Shown here: positions 5,060 to 28,383 of the stretch, piece after piece
Layout of the letters: every line of letters begins with the position of its first letter
How positions within the stretch are numbered: position 1 is the stretch's first letter
Made by a program: the position numbers and the translations under genes
Origin: Clostridia bacterium
GTDB taxonomy: Bacteria > Bacillota > Clostridia > Oscillospirales > Acutalibacteraceae
Assembly (NCBI GenBank): GCA_017531385.1
Contig: JAFXLD010000092.1
Coordinates: forward strand, 1-42,299
Reading direction: 5' to 3'
DNA length: 42,299 bases
Notes under the pieces: generated by a model
The model's input: only the letters and a program-made list of their open reading frames with translations
Told to the model about the DNA's origin: nothing
Database searches by the model: none

Positions 5060-6031
5060 TTACTTTATAAGCAACAGGAAAGAAAGCGAAATAACTGTCT
5101 GCACGATCTGGAATCTGAAAATTGTTTGTGTGTTTGACCAGCCTTTGTTCTTTCTGAAATGGTCATGAAGAGGAGTTCTGATATTTTTCATTATGCTGAT
5201 TTTAAGGAATCTCTTGAGTGAAACCTTAGCAATGCCGAGAAGTCCGTCAAGGAGAATGAGCAGACAAAGGGGAATTGCAAGAACGATGTTGCCTGTTTCA
5301 AGAAGTGAAATGCCGAGGAATACGCCGATAGCTCTTGAGCCTGCGTCGCCCATCATCATTGAGCTGGGCTCTGCGTTGTACCAGAGATAGGGCACGATGC
5401 AGAAAATCATTGCAATGATAAGTGATGAAAATTCCTTTTCCATGCTGCCTGCAAGACCGATAACGGCAATAAAAATGAGTGAATTTATTGAAAGTGTACC
5501 GCAGAAACCGTCAATACCGTCTGAGCAGTTTGTGGCGTTTATCATCATCCACAGGAAAACGGTTGAAATGCAGACAAAGAGAATCTTATTCACTGCAAAA
5601 TCAACAAAGAACAGGTCAAGCTTTGCAAGGTCAGGATTGAAATAAACAAAAGCAACCGATGCACCGACACAGATAACAAGGTCGATAAGTCCTTTTTTGT
5701 ATTCACTCCAGGGCTTGTCCGATTTGTCATCAAGATAGCCTGAGAGCATACTTGCAAGAACCACAACATAGTAAATTATGTATTCGGCAGTGATTGGAGC
5801 AAAAATCAGAGATGCCAGAACAAAAACGGCAGTGAAAACTATACCTGCACCTCTTGCTTTTCCCTCTGAAAGCTTGCCGTTGAATGCAAATTCACGCCCT
5901 GCATCTTTGGGAAGTTTTTTCTTGAAAACTTTAAGCAGTACAAGAACTGCAACAAATGAGAAAAGTATCAGTCCGAGATACATTAATTTGTTGTCAAAGG
6001 GGATGTTTAAAAGGGTTAACATAAGTAACAC
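5060..6031 (-). CDS. MraY/WecA-type phospho-sugar-1-phosphate transferase
   Basis: A polytopic enzyme of the polyprenyl-phosphate phosphosugar transferase family, which moves a UDP-linked sugar phosphate to undecaprenyl phosphate on the inner face of the membrane. Of 323 residues, the diagnostic loops are present: DDKSDK (101-106), NATNCSDGIDG (165-175), MGDAGS (227-232) and PLHDHF (287-292). The last is the MraY-like HxH loop, so a MurNAc-pentapeptide substrate is plausible. The sequence is divergent, and no murE, murF or murD lies beside it, so it may be a second, specialised copy. The start is uncertain: GTG at 6031 or ATG at 6022. It leads an operon with two small membrane proteins. Confidence 0.85.
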   Translation of the reverse strand: MLLMLTLLNIPFDNKLMYLGLILFSFVAVLVLLKVFKKKLPKDAGREFAFNGKLSEGKARGAGIVFTAVFVLASLIFAPITAEYIIYYVVVLASMLSGYLDDKSDKPWSEYKKGLIDLVICVGASVAFVYFNPDLAKLDLFFVDFAVNKILFVCISTVFLWMMINATNCSDGIDGFCGTLSINSLIFIAVIGLAGSMEKEFSSLIIAMIFCIVPYLWYNAEPSSMMMGDAGSRAIGVFLGISLLETGNIVLAIPLCLLILLDGLLGIAKVSLKRFLKISIMKNIRTPLHDHFRKNKGWSNTQTIFRFQIVQTVISLSFLLLIK

Positions 6032-6193
6032 TCACTTTCAATTCTGAGGATGAAGATATTGTATCACAGGATTACTGTTTATTCAATATTTTAATTGTAA
6101 CATTGATTGGCAATTTGTTTTATGGTTTTAAAGACAAAAAGACCGATCAAAAGTAGCGTAAGTAGGGATAAAAAAGACTAAAAGTACCACTTA

Positions 6194-6604
6194 TCACAAT
6201 TTAAACATTTGCAGTAAGTTTCCGATTAATGATTGATCTGCTTCGAATTCAAACATTAATGAGTGTGAGGAAAAGGACGCACCTAGCTGACCCTTGATAA
6301 ATACTATCCCATTTTTCATAACAAATTCTATATATCCATCCGTATCTGCTCCGATATCATAGATACGAAAAGAGCCGTTCAACGAATCATATGCAGTTTT
6401 TATCTCGTTTACTATGTTGAAATAAAAATGGTCAAATAGAGTAAAGGTATCGTACCCCTTGAAATCCGCATTTTCATAAGATATTCCAAATGTAATACAG
6501 GGACATCCCTCAATGTATTTGTATTGTTGCTCACTTGGTACTGAAAGCAAGCACAAGCAATTTGTTCTGTTATTCCATAGAACAATATCATTTTTTACAG
6601 TCAT
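6194..6604 (-). CDS. WapI-like immunity-type protein (orphan)
   Basis: A 136-aa soluble protein. The second half has strands ending in YIEFVMKNGIVFIKGQLG and a C-terminus FEFEADQSLIGNLLQMF that resembles the closing ADQT-x-L-x-x-L motif of WapI-family immunity proteins, which neutralise contact-dependent or polymorphic toxins. No toxin gene lies beside it, so it would be an orphan immunity gene or relic. AAAGGGGAG precedes the ATG, and the start overlaps the end of the broken gene upstream by about 17 nt. Assignment is by pattern only; a general hypothetical protein remains possible. Confidence 0.55.
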   Translation of the reverse strand: MTVKNDIVLWNNRTNCLCLLSVPSEQQYKYIEGCPCITFGISYENADFKGYDTFTLFDHFYFNIVNEIKTAYDSLNGSFRIYDIGADTDGYIEFVMKNGIVFIKGQLGASFSSHSLMFEFEADQSLIGNLLQMFKL

Positions 6605-6947
6605 TTATACTCCCCTTTGCCGTGTTGACAGAGGCAATCAACATTCTGCGAATTGATCCACAATCGTGTAAGACACTTTTTGCAACATCATCAAAGATAA
6701 TGCCTGATTTTTGGGCTATTTCAATCCAATATTCCGTTTCATATCATTCTTTCAATGCAATCTGCAACTTGGCGATAAAATCTGCACGGCTATGTGCGTA
6801 TTTTGCTTCACGGATATTTGCCCCTATACTTGTTCCACTTCATTCAAGCTGATTTGATAAAGAATAGTGTCCTTTTATGCCGCTAGTCAGTTTTAGAATT
6901 CGAATTGCAAAATCGGTTGATATGTCTGCAAGCTTATTTTCAGCCAT
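6588..6947 (-). pseudogene. Four-helix-bundle (23S rRNA intervening-sequence family) protein, two in-frame stops
   Basis: Reading the - strand from ATG 6947 gives a 119-codon frame that matches the four-helix-bundle family throughout, including HYSLSNQLE, SGTSIGANIREAKYAHSRAD, IALKE, YETEYWIEIAQKSGII and IRRMLIASVN. Two codons are TGA: codon 36 (6840-6842), where the family usually has Arg, which fits CGA to TGA, and codon 68 (6744-6746), where Cys is common. There is no frameshift, and the promoter and AGAGGTG ribosome site are intact, so inactivation looks recent. TGA is a normal stop elsewhere in the window, for example at 3063-3065. The frame runs slightly into the start of the next gene. 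Confidence 0.85.
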
Positions 6948-6968
6948 CGAAATCACCTCTTTTATGCT

Positions 6969-6997
6969 ATTATATCATAAAGCTTCGTAATTTTCAA
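6969..6997 (-). promoter_or_regulatory. Promoter of the four-helix-bundle pseudogene
   Basis: On the - strand TTGAAA (6992-6997) is followed after 17 bp by TATAAT (6969-6974), then AGAGGTG and the ATG at 6947. This is a near-consensus housekeeping promoter that would still drive the broken gene and the immunity-like gene. Confidence 0.8.
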
Positions 6998-7000
6998 TGA

Positions 7001-7156
7001 AATCGCTCAAAGAGCGATGAAATCCTCACTCCGTTCGGATGAATTCTGCTGTGCAGATGAAATTAAATCCGTCCTTTCTCCCGACGAAGTCGGATTTCAT
7101 CACAGAGTGATTTCATCCCACGCAAGTGGGATTTATCCCGTCCATAAGGACGGATT
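7001..7156. repeat. Array of short hairpins separated by ATTTCATC/GATGAAAT
   Basis: At least five small stem-loops follow one another: ATCGCTC/GAGCGAT (7002-7018), TCTGC/GCAGA (7045-7057), CCGAC/GTCGG (7081-7093), ATCCCAC/GTGGGAT (7115-7132) and CCGTCC/GGACGG (7138-7153). A weaker TCAC/GTGA lies between. Each stem differs in sequence, loops are 3-4 nt, and the spacers repeat GATGAAAT or ATTTCAT. There is no ORF. It resembles intergenic hairpin repeats of gut Clostridia; function unknown. Confidence 0.75.
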
Positions 7157-7160
7157 TAGT

Positions 7161-7201
7161 TAAAAAGAATCCACACTTGTCGTAGACAAATGTGGGTTCT
7201 T
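7161..7201 (-). terminator. Terminator of tRNA-Val
   Basis: A 17-bp stem with one mismatch and a 3-nt loop spans 7165-7201. On the - strand it begins right after the tRNA CCA end and finishes in CTTTTTAAC. Confidence 0.88.
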
Positions 7202-7204
7202 TTT

Positions 7205-7280
7205 TGGTGGACGATAACGGACTCGAACCGCTGACCCTTCGCACGTCAAGCGAATGCTCTACCAACTGAGCTAATCGTCC
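7205..7280 (-). tRNA. tRNA-Val, anticodon GAC
   Basis: A 76-nt cloverleaf on the - strand. The acceptor GGACGAT (7274-7280) pairs with ATCGTCC, the D-arm is GCTC/GAGC, and the anticodon stem TTCGC/GCGAA encloses the loop TTGACGT with anticodon GAC. The T-arm has TTCGAGT, the discriminator base is A, and CCA is encoded. It reads GUC/GUU valine codons. Fold and anticodon were assigned by hand. Confidence 0.95.
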
Positions 7281-22435: not shown

Positions 22436-23343
22436 TACATTATTATTCTCTTAATGACTATTGCCGAAAAACTTTCGGGCATAAGCTCTATAAACTGTCG
22501 CTTGACGGCGGAATGACCTGTCCTAACCGTGACGGAAAAATCGGCACGGGAGGCTGCATTTTCTGTTCGGAAGAAGGCTCGGGAGAATTTGCAGAGAAAC
22601 GATGCGGAGACATCACCTTTCAGCTTGAAAATGCAAAAAGACGTGTTGAACATAAAAACAAAGGCGGAAAATATATTGCATATTTTCAGAGCTTTACGAA
22701 TACTTATGCTCCGATACCGTATCTTGAAAAGATTTTTACCGAAGCGCTGAATCATCCCGATGTGGAGGTTTTTTCCGTTGCCACAAGACCCGACTGTCTG
22801 GGGGATGATGTGCTGAGACTTTTTGAAAAACTCAACCGCATCAAGCCCGTCTGGGTTGAACTTGGTTTTCAGACTTCAAACGAAAAGTCAGCTCTTTATA
22901 TCGGCAGAGGTTATGAAAACGGTGTTTTTGAAAAAGCCGTAAAAGACCTTAATGCAATCGGAATAAAAACAGTGGCACATATAATTCTCGGCTTGCCCGA
23001 TGAAACATATGATGATATGGAAAACAGCGTGAAATTTGTGTGTGACTGCGGAATTTGGGGTATTAAACTTCATCTTCTTCATGTGCTTAAGGGTACAGGT
23101 CTTGCAAAGGAATATGAACGCGGTGCATTCCGTTGCATGGATGAGAATGAATATCTCTGCACCGTTTGCAGATTGTTGAAAATTATTCCGCGTGATGTTG
23201 TTATCCACCGTCTTACGGGTGACGGTGATAAACGCAGACTTATTGCTCCTTTATGGAGCGGAAATAAAAAAGAAGTGCTCAATTCTCTTGCAAAAATGCT
23301 CAGAGAGCAGAATATAGTCCAAGGCTCTGAGTGTGAATATTGA
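22432..23343 (+). CDS. Radical SAM protein, TIGR01212 (YtqA) family
   Basis: A 303-aa radical SAM enzyme. The cluster-binding cysteines are in TCPNRDGKIGTGGCIFC, the widely spaced TIGR01212 variant of CxxxCxxC. The rest of the barrel follows, with YFQSFTNTYAPI, VATRPDC, ELGFQTSNEKS and HIILGLPDET. The family is widespread in Firmicutes; it is related to the Elp3-like group and its substrate is not established. The start codon overlaps the stop of the U32 gene (ATGA), indicating translational coupling. The next gene has its own promoter. Confidence 0.92.
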   Translation: MIHYYSLNDYCRKTFGHKLYKLSLDGGMTCPNRDGKIGTGGCIFCSEEGSGEFAEKRCGDITFQLENAKRRVEHKNKGGKYIAYFQSFTNTYAPIPYLEKIFTEALNHPDVEVFSVATRPDCLGDDVLRLFEKLNRIKPVWVELGFQTSNEKSALYIGRGYENGVFEKAVKDLNAIGIKTVAHIILGLPDETYDDMENSVKFVCDCGIWGIKLHLLHVLKGTGLAKEYERGAFRCMDENEYLCTVCRLLKIIPRDVVIHRLTGDGDKRRLIAPLWSGNKKEVLNSLAKMLREQNIVQGSECEY

Positions 23344-23368
23344 ATTTTTTTCCGATTAGTTATATAAT
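23340..23368 (+). promoter_or_regulatory. Promoter of the membrane-anchored sigma-factor gene
   Basis: TTGAAT (23340-23345), 17 bp, TATAAT (23363-23368), overlapping the stop codon of the previous gene; ACGGAG follows. This is a housekeeping-type promoter rather than an obvious ECF (AAC...CGT) one. Confidence 0.7.
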
Positions 23369-23386
23369 CGTAACGGAGTTGATTTT

Positions 23387-24625
23387 ATGACAAGTTCAGA
23401 TTACAGAAAATTATCGACACTGCTTGCAGAAATTAAAAGCGGGTCGAGAGATGCGTTTTCATCTGTATATAAAATGTATGAGAAAAAAGTTTATTTTCTT
23501 TTCTGCAAAATTCTGGGAAGCAAGACACTTGCAAGCACAATGACAATTGACCTGTTTGACCATGTCTATCTGAAGCTTTCTGATATGACTGACCCTGTGG
23601 GGTTTGAAAAATGGCTGTATAAAATACTTTTTTCAAGAGCAAGACAGCATCTGATTGCCAACAACCCCGAAGCTTTTGGTGATTACATTGACACAAATGC
23701 CCCGGCAGGTGAAGAAGCAGATGTGCTTCTTGCGCAGGATGCCGACGAAATGCTGTCTTATCCCGAGGGTATTGATATTACTGTCGATATGATGAAAACC
23801 GTCGATACGGTTCTGACCGACCTGCCTCTTAAATTGCGTGTTGCTGTGTTGCAGTATTATTTCTGCGGTTTTGATATGACTGAAATTGCATCGGCAGAGC
23901 AGATTTCTCTTATGGCTGTTAAAAACCGTCTTCTGAAGGCAAGAATCAGGATGAAAACAGAAGAACATAAATATACAGAGCTCGGGTTTGATTGCAGAGG
24001 ACTTGTTGTTTTTCTTCCCGACATACTCTCGACAATGGCGCAGAGTATTGTAACGGCGGCAAATATAGCAGCCGGTGTAACATCAAGAACGGGCATCAGA
24101 TGCACACAGGCTGATACACAGAACCCAAATTCAGACAGTCCCACAATGGTAATAAATGTTCCGAAACAACAACCGAAAGTCAATAATTATGCGCCCACAA
24201 GTTACGGAGTTCCTGAACCTCCTAAAAAGAGAGTCGGAGAGGATATTTCTCCCTCAGTTAAAGTTCTTATGGCATTGGTTGCCATCCTTATAATAATAGG
24301 CGGCACGGTTGCTGTTGTGCTTGCGGTGCAGGGCAGAAACGAAGCAAAAGAGAAAGGCTCCGTTGCGAATATCGAAAACACAACTCAATCAACAACTTTT
24401 GAGATAACTACAAACCCCATAATTAAACAGACTACTACGGAAACTACCACAGAAGAGTCAACGACCGAAACTACAACCGAAACAACCACGGAAACCACTA
24501 CCGAAACAACCACAGAAACTACAACACAGACCACAACGGAAACCACAACAGCCGATATACAGCAGCCTGAACCGGGCGGAGACGATATTCCCGTTGTTGA
24601 TGAAGATAATTTCCTGCTGTTTTAA
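23387..24625 (+). CDS. Sigma-70/ECF-like factor fused to a transmembrane helix and extracellular TTTE repeat
   Basis: A 412-aa protein with an unusual layout. Residues about 18-90 resemble sigma region 2 (RDAFSSVYKMYEKKVYFLFC ... GFEKWLYKILFSRARQHLI). About 135-192 form region 4 with a helix-turn-helix (LPLKLRVAVLQYYFCGFDMT, then EIASAEQISLMAVKNRLLKA). A variable linker of about 100 residues follows, then one membrane helix at 291-314, and an outer tail with tandem Thr-Thr-Thr-Glu units (about 349-388) ending in an acidic segment. Sigma domains would be cytoplasmic and the tail outside. ECF factors are normally held by separate anti-sigma proteins; here the anchor is in cis, so release by proteolysis is a natural model. 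A phosphohexomutase gene follows 13 bp downstream. Confidence 0.88.
   Translation: MTSSDYRKLSTLLAEIKSGSRDAFSSVYKMYEKKVYFLFCKILGSKTLASTMTIDLFDHVYLKLSDMTDPVGFEKWLYKILFSRARQHLIANNPEAFGDYIDTNAPAGEEADVLLAQDADEMLSYPEGIDITVDMMKTVDTVLTDLPLKLRVAVLQYYFCGFDMTEIASAEQISLMAVKNRLLKARIRMKTEEHKYTELGFDCRGLVVFLPDILSTMAQSIVTAANIAAGVTSRTGIRCTQADTQNPNSDSPTMVINVPKQQPKVNNYAPTSYGVPEPPKKRVGEDISPSVKVLMALVAILIIIGGTVAVVLAVQGRNEAKEKGSVANIENTTQSTTFEITTNPIIKQTTTETTTEESTTETTTETTTETTTETTTETTTQTTTETTTADIQQPEPGGDDIPVVDEDNFLLF
24431..24550 (+). repeat. Tandem 12-bp repeat coding for TTTE units
   Basis: About ten near-repeats of a 12-bp unit (ACNACNACNGAA) encode Thr-Thr-Thr-Glu in the sigma-like gene, with one Gln variant and one irregular unit (TTTEESTTE). 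Third positions vary, so the protein repeat is kept by selection rather than by fresh DNA duplication. Length variation between strains is likely. Confidence 0.85.
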
Positions 24626-24638
24626 AGGAGAATGAAGA

Positions 24639-26138
24639 ATGTCACTTATAAGTCTTAAAAGCGGAACTGATATCAGAGGTACCGCAATCGGTGAAAAAAC
24701 CGATCTGACTGATGAAGCTGTCAGAAAAATTACAATGGGATTTATAAAAGTTGCAGCTGAAAAGTGTTCGGTTGCGCCCGAAAAAATGACTGTTGCGGTC
24801 GGTCACGATTCAAGACTTTCTGCAGAGCGTATCAAAAAAAATGTTATTTCCGTCCTTTGCGCAAATGGCATAAAAGTGCTTGATTGCTCTCTTGCGTCTA
24901 CTCCCGCAATGTTCATGACAACTGTTACTCTTGGCTGTACTGCATCTGTTCAGATAACGGCGAGTCATCATCCCTTTGATAAAAACGGACTCAAATTTTT
25001 TACAAAACACGGCGGTTTTGAAAGCAACGACATCATAAAAATTCTGGAGTATGCCGAGCAAGCGGATATTTCGGGAATTGCAGATGCCGAAACAAGCGAA
25101 AAAATTGACTTTATGAGTCAGTATGCGGACATTCTTTGCAAGATGATCTGCGATGGTGTAAATGCAGAAAATTTTGAAAAACCTCTTGAGGGATTTCATA
25201 TCGTGACCGATGCAGGTAACGGTGTCGGCGGTTTTTATGCCGAAAAAGTGTTGAAAAAACTCGGTGCTGATATTTCGGGCAGTTTATTCCTTGATCCCGA
25301 CGGTAATTTTCCCAATCATGCACCCAATCCCGAGGATAAAACAGCAATGAAATTTATTTCCGATGCTGTTATTGCATCAGAAGCCGATTTCGGTGTGATT
25401 TTTGATACAGATGTAGACAGGGCTGCCTGTGTTGATGAAAACGGCAATGAAATCAACAGAAATTCACTTGTTGCTCTTGCTTCTGCAATCGCTCTTGAAG
25501 GAAATGCAGGAGGTACTATCGTAACCGATTCCGTAACAAGTGACGGTCTGAAAATTTTTATTGAAGAGCATCTGGGTGGCAAGCATCACCGATTCAGAAG
25601 AGGCTATAAAAATGTTATAAACGAAGCAATAAGGCTCAACAGCGAGGGTATCAACTGTCCTCTTGCCATAGAAACTTCGGGACATGCTGCTCTGCGTGAA
25701 AACTACTTCCTTGATGACGGAGCATATCTTATTACAAAAATAATTATTCTTCTGGCTTCGCTCCGCAAAGATGGTAAAAAAATCGGAGATATAATTTCTT
25801 CCCTGAAACAGCCGAAAGAAGAAAAGGAAATGCGCTTTAAAATTCTTACCGATGATTTTAAAAGCTACGGTGAAGAAGTTATAAAAAGTCTTGAAAAATA
25901 TGCAAAAACACGTGACGGTTGGAAAATCGCAGATGATAACCGTGAGGGAATCAGAATTTCGCTTGACGAAAACCACGGTAACGGCTGGATGCTTCTGCGC
26001 CTGAGTGTTCATGACCCGATTCTGCCCTTTAATGCAGAAAGTGATTCTGAGGGTGGAGTAAAAATCATAACAAATGAATTTTATGAATTTATTAAAAAAT
26101 TTGATATGCTTGATCTTTCTGCGTTCAGAACAAATTAA
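24639..26138 (+). CDS. Phosphoglucomutase/phosphomannomutase family enzyme
   Basis: A 499-aa alpha-D-phosphohexomutase, interconverting hexose 1- and 6-phosphates for polysaccharide and wall precursors. The phosphoserine loop is TASHHPFDKNGLKFF with S109 (the usual TASHNP is changed to HHP), the Mg loop is DTDVDR (D256, D258, D260), the sugar-specificity loop is ETSGH, and the C-terminal phosphate-binding domain is present. The metal-sugar region FRRGYKNV replaces the common VGxK form. AAAGGAG precedes the ATG. It is 13 bp after the anchored sigma factor gene, probably the same transcript. Confidence 0.9.
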   Translation: MSLISLKSGTDIRGTAIGEKTDLTDEAVRKITMGFIKVAAEKCSVAPEKMTVAVGHDSRLSAERIKKNVISVLCANGIKVLDCSLASTPAMFMTTVTLGCTASVQITASHHPFDKNGLKFFTKHGGFESNDIIKILEYAEQADISGIADAETSEKIDFMSQYADILCKMICDGVNAENFEKPLEGFHIVTDAGNGVGGFYAEKVLKKLGADISGSLFLDPDGNFPNHAPNPEDKTAMKFISDAVIASEADFGVIFDTDVDRAACVDENGNEINRNSLVALASAIALEGNAGGTIVTDSVTSDGLKIFIEEHLGGKHHRFRRGYKNVINEAIRLNSEGINCPLAIETSGHAALRENYFLDDGAYLITKIIILLASLRKDGKKIGDIISSLKQPKEEKEMRFKILTDDFKSYGEEVIKSLEKYAKTRDGWKIADDNREGIRISLDENHGNGWMLLRLSVHDPILPFNAESDSEGGVKIITNEFYEFIKKFDMLDLSAFRTN

Positions 26139-26180: not shown

Positions 26181-26209
26181 TATTTTATTAATTAACAGAG
26201 GTGCATAAA

Positions 26210-27364
26210 ATGCTCTACTTTATCAGACAAGCTCTTCAGCCCATTATTGCAATTGTAATGGCAATCATCATGATGTTTTCTGCGGCAGGCCCAGAAAAGG
26301 CTCCCGAAGAATTTGAACAGGTGCAGAATGTTATCTATCTTATAGGTGACGGTATGGGACCTCTTCATCTTGAGAAGGCTAAGCAGGAGAGAAATATTAC
26401 TCTTACTATGGATACTTTTGATTATATCGGACGTTCTCAGACACGTTCACAGGCAAACCCTGTTACAGACAGTGCTGCAGGCGCAACAGCTCTTGCTTGC
26501 GGTGTAAGAACTTTCAACGGCTATGTCGGCGTTTTCTATTATGATCCGCTTCATGTTGAAAGTCAGCCCAAGAGCCTTACTGAACTTTGCATTGAAAAGG
26601 GTATGATGACAGGTATTGTTACAACAGACAGCACATCAGGTGCAACTCCCAGCGGTTTTTCTGTTCACACTTCATCAAGAAACAATACAGAAGATATTGA
26701 CACTCAGCAGATGAATTCCGATATCGACCTTATCTGGGGTGGCACATCTGATTATATTTCACAGGAAACATGTGAAGCAAACGGCTTTACTTTTGTTAAA
26801 ACATATTCAGAAATGATGGCTGTTGAAGAGGGCGAACGCAGTTTTGCTCAGTTTGACAACAACACATGGGGTGTAGAACAGTATGATGCTGAAACTCCCA
26901 CTCTTTCACAGATGGCAATGAAAGCTATCGATGTTCTTGATGATACAGATGAGGGCTTCTTTATTATGATTGAAGGCGCTCATATCGATAAACATTCACA
27001 CAGTAATCTCGATGCAGAAATGGCAGAAGCTCTTGAAGAGTTTGACAGAACTGTTGCTGCTGCACTTGATTATGCAGAAAAAGACGGCAATACTCTTGTT
27101 GTTGTTACTGCTGACCATGAAACAGGCGGTATTGTTCTGAATGATGACGGAACATATTCATTCACATCGGGCTCTCATTCCGGTGCAAATGTTCCCGTGC
27201 TTGTTTACGGTTCAGATACTTTCCTCGAAGACGGTGAAGTAGTAAATAACATTGATATTCCTGTAAGAATCGCATATTCACTCGGCTTTGAAGAAGGCGA
27301 TATTCCTTATGAACAGTTTGCTGATTGGATGAAATATGTGATTGAGGCTTACGAAAAGAAGTAA
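26210..27364 (+). CDS. Exported alkaline phosphatase
   Basis: A 384-aa alkaline phosphatase superfamily enzyme that releases phosphate from phosphomonoesters outside the cell. It has an N-terminal membrane or signal segment (about 8-27, MAIIMMFSAAG), IGDGMG with metal ligand D47, the nucleophile serine S88 in VTDSAAGATALACG, the metal motifs IEGAHIDKHSHS and TADHETGG, and a late SGSHSGANVPV histidine. There is no lipobox cysteine. A GTG at 26201 is in frame, but AGAGGTG is the ribosome site for the ATG at 26210. It lacks the extra C-terminal domains seen in larger family members. Confidence 0.92.
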   Translation: MLYFIRQALQPIIAIVMAIIMMFSAAGPEKAPEEFEQVQNVIYLIGDGMGPLHLEKAKQERNITLTMDTFDYIGRSQTRSQANPVTDSAAGATALACGVRTFNGYVGVFYYDPLHVESQPKSLTELCIEKGMMTGIVTTDSTSGATPSGFSVHTSSRNNTEDIDTQQMNSDIDLIWGGTSDYISQETCEANGFTFVKTYSEMMAVEEGERSFAQFDNNTWGVEQYDAETPTLSQMAMKAIDVLDDTDEGFFIMIEGAHIDKHSHSNLDAEMAEALEEFDRTVAAALDYAEKDGNTLVVVTADHETGGIVLNDDGTYSFTSGSHSGANVPVLVYGSDTFLEDGEVVNNIDIPVRIAYSLGFEEGDIPYEQFADWMKYVIEAYEKK

Positions 27365-27432: not shown

Positions 27433-28383
27433 ATGGATTCCAAGAAAAAGAAAGCGATAATCTGGAGTGTTGTTGCCGTAGTTTTATTGTTGGCTGTAGC
27501 CGGGCTTGTCTGGTTTATGGTAGAAAATCCGGATTCGATTCCAACCGGTAATGATGGTGGGATTGACGAGATTACATATCAGACTCCGCAGACAAATGTC
27601 TTTACTACAGAGCCGGAAAGTACAACACCGGCGCCTGAAATTACAACTGAAAAGCCTACAACAGAAGTTGAAAGCTATGTTGAACAATTTATGGCTGAAG
27701 CAAATACTTATTCTCAGACAGTTGAAGTTACAACAACTCCTGCAGGTGAAAAACCGTTTTTCCACATTGTAACAGACGGAACAGTTACTGACGATAATTC
27801 ACTGGAAGGTCTTGACGGTGCACTTAAAACAGTGGGACAGGTTATCCTTGCTGCAGGTTTCAGATATGATAAAGAGCAGCGTATTTTCTATTCTGAAACT
27901 CAGTCATGGCAGAGAAACTTCGGTTTCACACCGATTTATGATGCAGCCGCAGCCTTTACCGGTATGTATTATGACACCATGCGTATAAAATTCAATTATG
28001 AGAATCTTGATTGGATGTTCCAGATCTGGAAAGGCAGATACGGCATTACAACAGGTGCTGAGATGGGCGTTTATCATAAAGACCCCGGCACTGATGCAAA
28101 TTTCTATGTATGCGCAGAAGATGAAGAAAGAATCACAATGTCATTCGCTCTTTATAAAGGTGATGAACTTTTCATGACAAGAGGTCCCGAGCCTCATTGG
28201 TGGCTCACAGGCTTCAAACTTTTTGAAATGATATCGCCAAAGGATCTGACACTTCATGCAACATTCTTTATGGAAGATGCAGGCATGGCAGATGCTCTTG
28301 AGAATTCACTTGAAGATCTCGGATTCAAGAAAGGCATAAACTATCAGCGTCTGGGACTTACCATGACGATAATCTGGAGATAA
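27433..28383 (+). CDS. Membrane-anchored DUF4474 protein with a Thr/Glu/Pro-rich linker
   Basis: A 316-aa protein. A short basic N-terminus and one membrane helix (about 9-29) place the rest outside. A linker (about 55-80) is rich in Thr, Glu and Pro (TTEPESTTPAPEITTEKPTT), similar in kind to the tail of the anchored sigma factor 3 kb upstream. Residues about 155-310 match the DUF4474 pattern, including FGFTPIYDAAAAFTGMYYDT and WMFQIWKGRYGITTGAEMGV. DUF4474 has no known function but is common on surface proteins of Ruminococcaceae. GGGGGAGG precedes the ATG and a terminator follows. Confidence 0.82.
   Translation: MDSKKKKAIIWSVVAVVLLLAVAGLVWFMVENPDSIPTGNDGGIDEITYQTPQTNVFTTEPESTTPAPEITTEKPTTEVESYVEQFMAEANTYSQTVEVTTTPAGEKPFFHIVTDGTVTDDNSLEGLDGALKTVGQVILAAGFRYDKEQRIFYSETQSWQRNFGFTPIYDAAAAFTGMYYDTMRIKFNYENLDWMFQIWKGRYGITTGAEMGVYHKDPGTDANFYVCAEDEERITMSFALYKGDELFMTRGPEPHWWLTGFKLFEMISPKDLTLHATFFMEDAGMADALENSLEDLGFKKGINYQRLGLTMTIIWR

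Follow-up and report, generated by a model that had tools for sequence, protein, structure and literature searches.

A predicted membrane-tethered ECF-type sigma factor with a threonine-rich tail, and its fused relatives in the Clostridia

Introduction

ECF sigma factors of the SigW and RpoE type are soluble proteins, each with a separate membrane anti-sigma factor. There are also sigma factors that are fused to a membrane region, which the literature covered describes for some groups of Actinobacteria and for one Pseudomonas protein. IutY of Pseudomonas putida (ECF243) is described as a single polypeptide with an N-terminal cytoplasmic ECF sigma domain, a single membrane segment, and an outside part (PMC5411451, PMC8999054). 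It is freed by Prc and RseP, and Prc was reported to be required only for those variants with an outside part of more than about 50 residues (PMC5411451). SCO4117 (ECF52) is described as having a zinc finger, a membrane region, a proline-rich stretch, and a carbohydrate-binding domain, and its proteolytic release has been proposed (PMC5826349). Proteins of ECF48, ECF52, ECF53, and ECF243 and some members of ECF36 are listed as fused, with proteolytic activation shown or expected (PMC8999054). Some of those in ECF52 and ECF53 are predicted to carry glycosyl-hydrolase or carbohydrate-binding domains outside (PMC10766802), and C-terminal extensions are known across many ECF groups (PMC8103513).

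The gene described here is from a Clostridia bacterium (assembly GCA_017531385.1, contig JAFXLD010000092.1) and lies in a 42,299 nucleotide stretch of DNA, which is the window referred to throughout. The original prediction, made from the letters of the window, was that sensor, anchor, and effector of an ECF-type sigma factor could all be present in one polypeptide.

Results

The gene is at 23387..24625 on the + strand, as are all of the window features given below, and its frame is intact, running for 412 codons from an ATG start to a stop. Its product of 412 aa appears to be an ECF-type sigma factor that continues into a predicted membrane helix and a tail, in the order of N-terminal sigma domain, single predicted membrane segment, and C-terminal part, with the placement of the helix coming from hydropathy only. 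Sigma region 4 (residues 132-191, 23780..23959), with a basic recognition helix, has an over-cut-off match to Pfam Sigma70_r4_2 at residues 139-189, of 30.1 bits against a cut-off of 25.7. Region 2 (residues 11-91, 23417..23659) was placed through a profile alignment to SigW over residues 11-189. There is no match to Pfam Sigma70_r2 in the window protein at E<=1, and the Pfam Sigma70_ECF score of 18.4 is below its cut-off of 21.1. The NCBIfam SigW model covers residues 12-191 (E 4e-15), although at 56 bits against an equivalog cut-off of 209, and TIGR02937 aligns region 2 at 35.9 bits, below 42.9. Region 2 is therefore regarded as divergent, since Pfam does not see it, yet both the SigW model and the general ECF model align it at scores below cut-off.

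A profile made from ten orthologs matches the solved SigW 5wuq (E 1e-20, residues 11-189) and also sigma-H and sigma-E (1e-13 to 1e-11). The SigW, SigH, and SigE matches span both regions, which is the ECF (group IV) layout, a single chain that has regions 2 and 4 and lacks regions 1 and 3. Residues 18-192 had been proposed to match a sigma factor, which is borne out for the stretch as a whole by these profile and model matches and by Sigma70_r4_2, but region 2 on its own is not recognised by the Sigma70_r2 family. Region 4 stays basic across ten orthologs, with a net charge for residues 170-195 of +1 to +5. The best reading of these alignments is that the window protein is an ECF-type sigma factor, with a predicted role in directing transcription from promoters.

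The linker of about 100 residues that had been noted between region 4 and the helix is indeed present, and is made up of two parts. The first is a conserved neck directly after region 4 (residues 192-239, 23960..24103), which is gapless in ten orthologs and ends in an invariant Cys. The second is a variable spacer (residues 240-287, 24104..24247) with 26% gaps. The linker was considered as a possible zinc-finger anti-sigma domain and this was ruled out, there being no such Pfam family on the window protein at E<=1, and no Pfam domain at all is found over cut-off after residue 192.

The predicted membrane helix (residues 288-313, 24248..24325) is without gaps in the ortholog alignment. The window protein's helix was called by hydropathy as the one criterion, the top 19-residue window being at 293-311 with a mean of 2.96, inside the helix first placed at 291-314. 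A hydropathy window of 2.8-3.4 is present in 12/12 orthologs, one of which (L036) has an additional weak window (1.66) inside the neck. None of the 11 other sigma-like proteins of the same genome has a hydropathy window >=1.6.

The tail (residues 314-412, 24326..24622), presumed to be outside, is 35% Thr, and the Thr content of the tail across the 12 orthologs is 18-38%. Within it is a repeat block (24431..24553) for which about ten Thr-Thr-Thr-Glu units had been claimed. This was an overcount, as there are nine Thr-Thr-Thr-X units by pattern and, by eye, seven of these are TTTE, one is TTTQ, and one is TTTA. The Thr codons of the block are mixed (10 ACA, 9 ACC, 6 ACT, and 4 ACG), which rules out simple DNA slippage as its origin. 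No ligand-binding Pfam domain was found in the tail.

Full-length orthologs are present in nine of the ten other genomes of the same genus, at 46-77% identity, from a search of 60 genomes that included the window's own. In the tenth (G002, 70% complete) there are matches to the helix-and-tail part only. Two further orthologs were found in genus g131 when 250 genomes of the family were searched. The nine named ortholog records are from Clostridia or Clostridiales, four of these coming from the gut of yak, water buffalo, or roe deer. The strong helix and the Thr-rich tail are kept in 12/12 orthologs. That the same architecture is seen in 12 genomes rules out a lone fusion or an accident of assembly.

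Residues 1-239 of the ten same-genus proteins align without a gap. Mean pairwise identity is 0.53 for region 2, 0.61 for region 4, 0.62 for the neck, 0.29 for the spacer, 0.67 for the helix, and 0.46 for the tail. Compared with relative G008, dN/dS is 0.16 for region 2, 0.06 for the loop, 0.07 for region 4, and 0.04 for the neck, the lowest of the four, and 0.10 over the whole core; these values are from one pair, for which dS of about 0.9 to 2 is near saturation. The constraint on the neck thus equals that on the DNA-binding domain, and the neck may act on the sigma domain. The gapless core of sigma domain and neck in ten proteins, together with the helix and tail in all 12, lends support to the idea of sensor, anchor, and effector in one polypeptide.

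There were 12 matches to PF08281 over cut-off in the window's genome, which is 83% complete, and the 11 other than the window's gene served as the control, with 14 weaker matches lying outside the control set. In eight of these 11 sigma-like genes, the next ORF has a predicted membrane helix and begins at a gap of -16 to +15 bases; three have no such ORF. Anti-sigma factors are usually encoded in this position. Only one of the eight partners carries a named anti-sigma domain (RsgI_M, E 2e-27, plus PepSY), and the remaining partners are therefore putative anti-sigma factors; one has DUF4367 and six are without a family over cut-off, two of the eight ORFs being truncated where the locus ends.

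Beside the 12 orthologs, there is no membrane anti-sigma candidate among the adjoining ORFs of at least 90 codons, as far as the loci reach, those of G007 and G009 extending little past the gene on one side. Set against the 8/11 partnered sigma genes, this also favours the one-polypeptide idea. The earlier observation that no anti-sigma gene adjoins the window gene holds, as the gene that follows, for a phosphohexomutase, starts 13 bases past the sigma stop. The helix and tail may be read as occupying the place of the anti-sigma partner inside the same chain.

There appears to be a sigma-A-like promoter 5' of the sigma gene, with the pattern TTGAAT-17-TATAAT at 23340..23368. The form TTGAWW-17-TAWAMT is present in 11 of the 12 upstream regions, and nine of these sit 47-53 bases before the start; G238 and G140 are near copies. 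When each upstream region was shuffled 300 times with dinucleotides kept, no more than 1% of the shuffles had the pattern, a figure that is only descriptive because the pattern was written after the alignment was seen. An inverted repeat, CGATTA-N6-TAATCG (23353-23370), overlaps the -10 element in the window and is not exactly kept in G008. The promoter pattern points to steady transcription, with control likely to come after synthesis. Autoregulation at the visible promoter is unsupported, the pattern being sigma-A-like.

The phosphohexomutase gene (24639..26138; PGM/PMM family, Pfam PGM_PMM I-III) had been taken as incidental. It is instead a conserved downstream neighbour and likely operon partner, being directly 3' of the sigma gene in the window, in seven of nine same-genus relatives, and in both g131 genomes, which is 10/12 loci. 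Its start, as aligned among the orthologs, is 4 to 21 bases past the sigma stop in nine of these ten, and 175 bases past it in G001. In G010 the phosphatase-like gene described below follows the sigma gene instead, and in G009 the contig ends there. In both of these genomes (G010, L090; G009, L089) the sigma gene is kept and a phosphohexomutase match at E<=1e-80 is absent, which would mean that the operon link is not obligatory. The idea that a phosphohexomutase generally accompanies fused sigma genes was also considered, and was ruled out on the 16 of 22 further loci (L180-L201) in which a phosphohexomutase ORF was located, these being all but L194 and L196-L200 (L196 is same-genus G002). None of the upstream ORFs shown for the 16 is sigma-like by eye (none being shown for L183).

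Further 3' is a gene retained in eight of nine same-genus relatives by tblastn synteny (26201..27364), the product of which we take to be an alkaline-phosphatase-like protein. After this is a gene, found downstream in six of nine same-genus relatives, for a DUF4474 protein (27433..28383; Pfam DUF4474, 165 bits) that has a hydrophobic helix at its N terminus and also a Thr-rich linker. The Thr-rich linker of this protein much resembles the tail of the sigma factor. The neighbours of the window gene are those for a radical-SAM protein and for the phosphohexomutase. The 5' side varies between genomes, the adjoining gene being of the YtqA type in the window and in G008, whereas five others have a divergent transporter.

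A sister paralog, here called the 674-type, is present in eight genomes, including that of the window (L064, G000:C8:10000-22000, 5186-7210, + strand; the others are L065-L071). In these proteins of 668-715 aa, a sigma-like domain is joined to a neck related to that of the window type and to a helix, with glycine-rich repeats past the helix. The net charge of the region-4 recognition helix is -5 to 0 in the eight 674-type proteins, the range for the window type being +1 to +5 and the segments of the two types having been cut out by different rules, and the 674-type probably no longer binds DNA. The repeats resemble GLUG repeats by eye, and L064, the protein of this type that was scanned, is without such a Pfam match at 1e-4. 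Cys239 (24101-24103), the last residue of the neck, is invariant in the ten aligned orthologs and was seen by eye in both g131 proteins; it was not seen at that site in the 674-type. It is conceivable that it is a thiol switch or a lipidation site.

When an HMM of the neck only was run against 48 fused proteins, the two g131 orthologs were clear matches (28.3 and 26.9 bits) and two of the eight 674-type proteins scored 12.4 and 9.0 bits. The remaining fused proteins were at 6.0 bits or less, inside the range of 960 shuffled sequences (best 7.9). In hhalign comparisons, the neck profile scores 29.0 against the 674-type neck (maximum of 15.2 in 60 column shuffles) and 16.9 against the neck of the wider family (maximum of 12.7 in 60 shuffles). 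The 674-type neck scores a poor 9.9 against the wider-family neck, a value without a shuffle control. The likeness to the wider-family neck is suggestive, and is weak taken alone.

Frames of 411 to 1303 codons hold 46 of the 64 family-search matches listed, including the first 40. From 34 loci chosen for their long frames came 36 ORFs, two of which are the g131 orthologs. In 34 of the 36 there is a hydrophobic window past residue 190 of >=1.6, reaching >=1.9 in 30, and it is absent in L144 and L148. All seven loci picked from searches of the order and class have such a window; in these searches many of the matches are ordinary short sigma genes, and those that extend past the sigma domain sit in long frames partly by construction. 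Long sigma fusions of a second kind, in frames of about 850-1100 codons, turn up repeatedly among the matches listed for the order and class. The one that was read, L076 (G055:C24:3000-13000; 867 aa), is without a hydrophobic window.

Pfam was run on 30 of the 48 fused proteins, and 13 have a named domain over cut-off past the helix. Ten of these have LRR_5, and single proteins have CAP, Ig-like (Big), or WG repeats. For the other 17, no outside Pfam domain is found at E 1e-4. One protein of the fused set (L158) has no Pfam family at E 1e-4, sigma included. The wider-family profile (A4) was built from 28 of the 48.

In a tree from 180 sigma-only columns, made without a mixture model and with soluble L019 (a very long branch) and soluble L052 absent, 58 fused rows are on one side of a branch from 17 soluble ones, with support of 100/98 and one change. 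A quick tree with some neck columns and with L019 kept gives two changes. In both, fused means having a long C-terminal part, so that L144 and L148 are counted despite having no helix call, and L076 (a large fusion with the helix absent) and L077 (a 173-aa ORF) were kept out of the fused set. A single origin is favoured and not proved, because likeness to fused proteins was the basis on which the fused set was gathered, and soluble rows are few.

Discussion

On balance, we consider it somewhat probable that the window gene encodes a one-piece, membrane-tethered ECF-type sigma factor, expressed from an operon with a housekeeping promoter, held latent by its tether and neck, and freed by proteolysis. 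From this promoter the sigma gene would be transcribed steadily, at the head of an operon that also holds the phosphohexomutase gene. The sigma domain would face the cytoplasm and be held off RNA polymerase by the membrane tether, with the neck probably folding back on it as a built-in anti-sigma factor, and the Thr-rich tail would reach into the cell wall. An envelope signal may expose or trim the tail, with a first protease shortening it and an RseP-type site-2 protease then cutting inside the membrane. The freed sigma fragment would direct a small, envelope-related regulon. That the signal is the state of the wall is a guess, as is the content of the regulon.

Release by two cuts is favoured by the precedents of IutY and SCO4117, by the M50 match, and by the length of the tail. 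At about 100 residues, the tail exceeds the roughly 50 of the IutY rule, which would make a first cut necessary. There are M50 site-2 protease candidates in the window's genome, with a match on C6 over the whole profile (E 9e-64) and more on C102 and C40. The same genome, at 83% completeness, gave no match to a PrsW-type site-1 protease, which would also fit a protein that is never cut. Membrane-bound regulators of the ToxR/CadC type act without release, and the uncut window protein might similarly bring RNA polymerase to nearby promoters, with the variable spacer between neck and helix serving as a flexible lead. This is an unlikely explanation, given that IutY, itself a one-piece sigma protein, is activated by removal of its outside part and that the same is proposed for SCO4117.

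It is improbable to much the same degree that the protein is a sigma-derived decoy or scaffold at the membrane that has lost its function in starting transcription. The 674-type paralog may be just that, as it keeps the neck and helix despite the charge of its region 4, and the divergence of region 2 in the window protein would be in keeping with this. The window type, however, has a basic region 4, a match to a region-4 family over cut-off, and strong constraint. Least likely of all, and very doubtful, is an ordinary ECF sigma factor with its anti-sigma factor encoded elsewhere and a helix and tail that merely place it at the membrane, for which a neighbourhood is no bar in a genome that is 83% complete and three of the 11 other sigma-like genes equally have no adjacent membrane partner, but against which eight of the 11 have theirs directly adjacent and none of the 12 orthologs does within the stretches covered.

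Taking the latent, tethered sigma factor as the preferred reading, a single gene would cover every step between the cell surface and the promoter. If true, this would provide one-gene handles on sensing by uncultured gut bacteria, a scaffold for the building of sensors, and a test case for an anti-sigma factor absorbed into its own sigma factor. More tentatively, and with rather less confidence than for the window protein itself, the Clostridia may have a large family of receptor-like sigma factors that share a single origin, each composed of a sigma domain, a neck switch as built-in anti-sigma factor, a helix, and an interchangeable outside part. The outside parts would be BspA-type leucine-rich repeats, CAP, Ig-like domains, WG repeats, or a Thr-rich stalk only. 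The window protein would be the minimal form, reading the wall via a disordered Thr-rich stalk alone, much as is proposed for Wsc1 and Mid2, the Ser/Thr-rich wall sensors of yeast, and the sister paralog would be a membrane pseudo-sigma factor. Should this reading hold, Clostridia make wide use of fused sigma factors with varied outside modules.

Sigma factor and anchor in one chain are already known from the accounts of IutY and of ECF48/52/53, and varied outside domains have already been predicted in ECF52/53. The likeness to IutY, as that protein is described, is in the order of the parts within one chain, these being the sigma domain, one membrane segment, and an outside part (the last two predicted here). 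The outside part of IutY is an anti-sigma domain tied to an outer-membrane siderophore receptor that is encoded alongside. The window protein instead has its relatives in the Clostridia, a Thr-rich tail that is without a Pfam domain, and no adjacent receptor gene, and has neither of the features that mark the IutY type (ECF243). The actinobacterial ECF52, ECF53, and ECF48 share with it a sigma domain fused to a membrane region and, in ECF52, a low-complexity (proline-rich) outside stretch. The zinc-finger anti-sigma domain that precedes the membrane region in ECF52, ECF53, and ECF48, and the carbohydrate-binding domain of ECF52, a group called exclusive to Actinobacteria, are not found in the window protein by Pfam at E<=1, and the conserved neck is a different one. 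SCO4117 has been suggested to autoregulate, whereas the visible promoter of the window gene is sigma-A-like. SigW and RpoE-type factors align with it in regions 2 and 4 over residues 11-189, the difference being the neck, helix, and tail that are fused on. An existing group of the ECF classification may cover these proteins. A search of the literature for such a fusion in Clostridia or Firmicutes gave none among the matches listed. What is new, as far as those matches show, is the Clostridia family, along with its neck and the parts it has outside, as well as a minimal form that has a Thr-rich tail and a phosphohexomutase operon.
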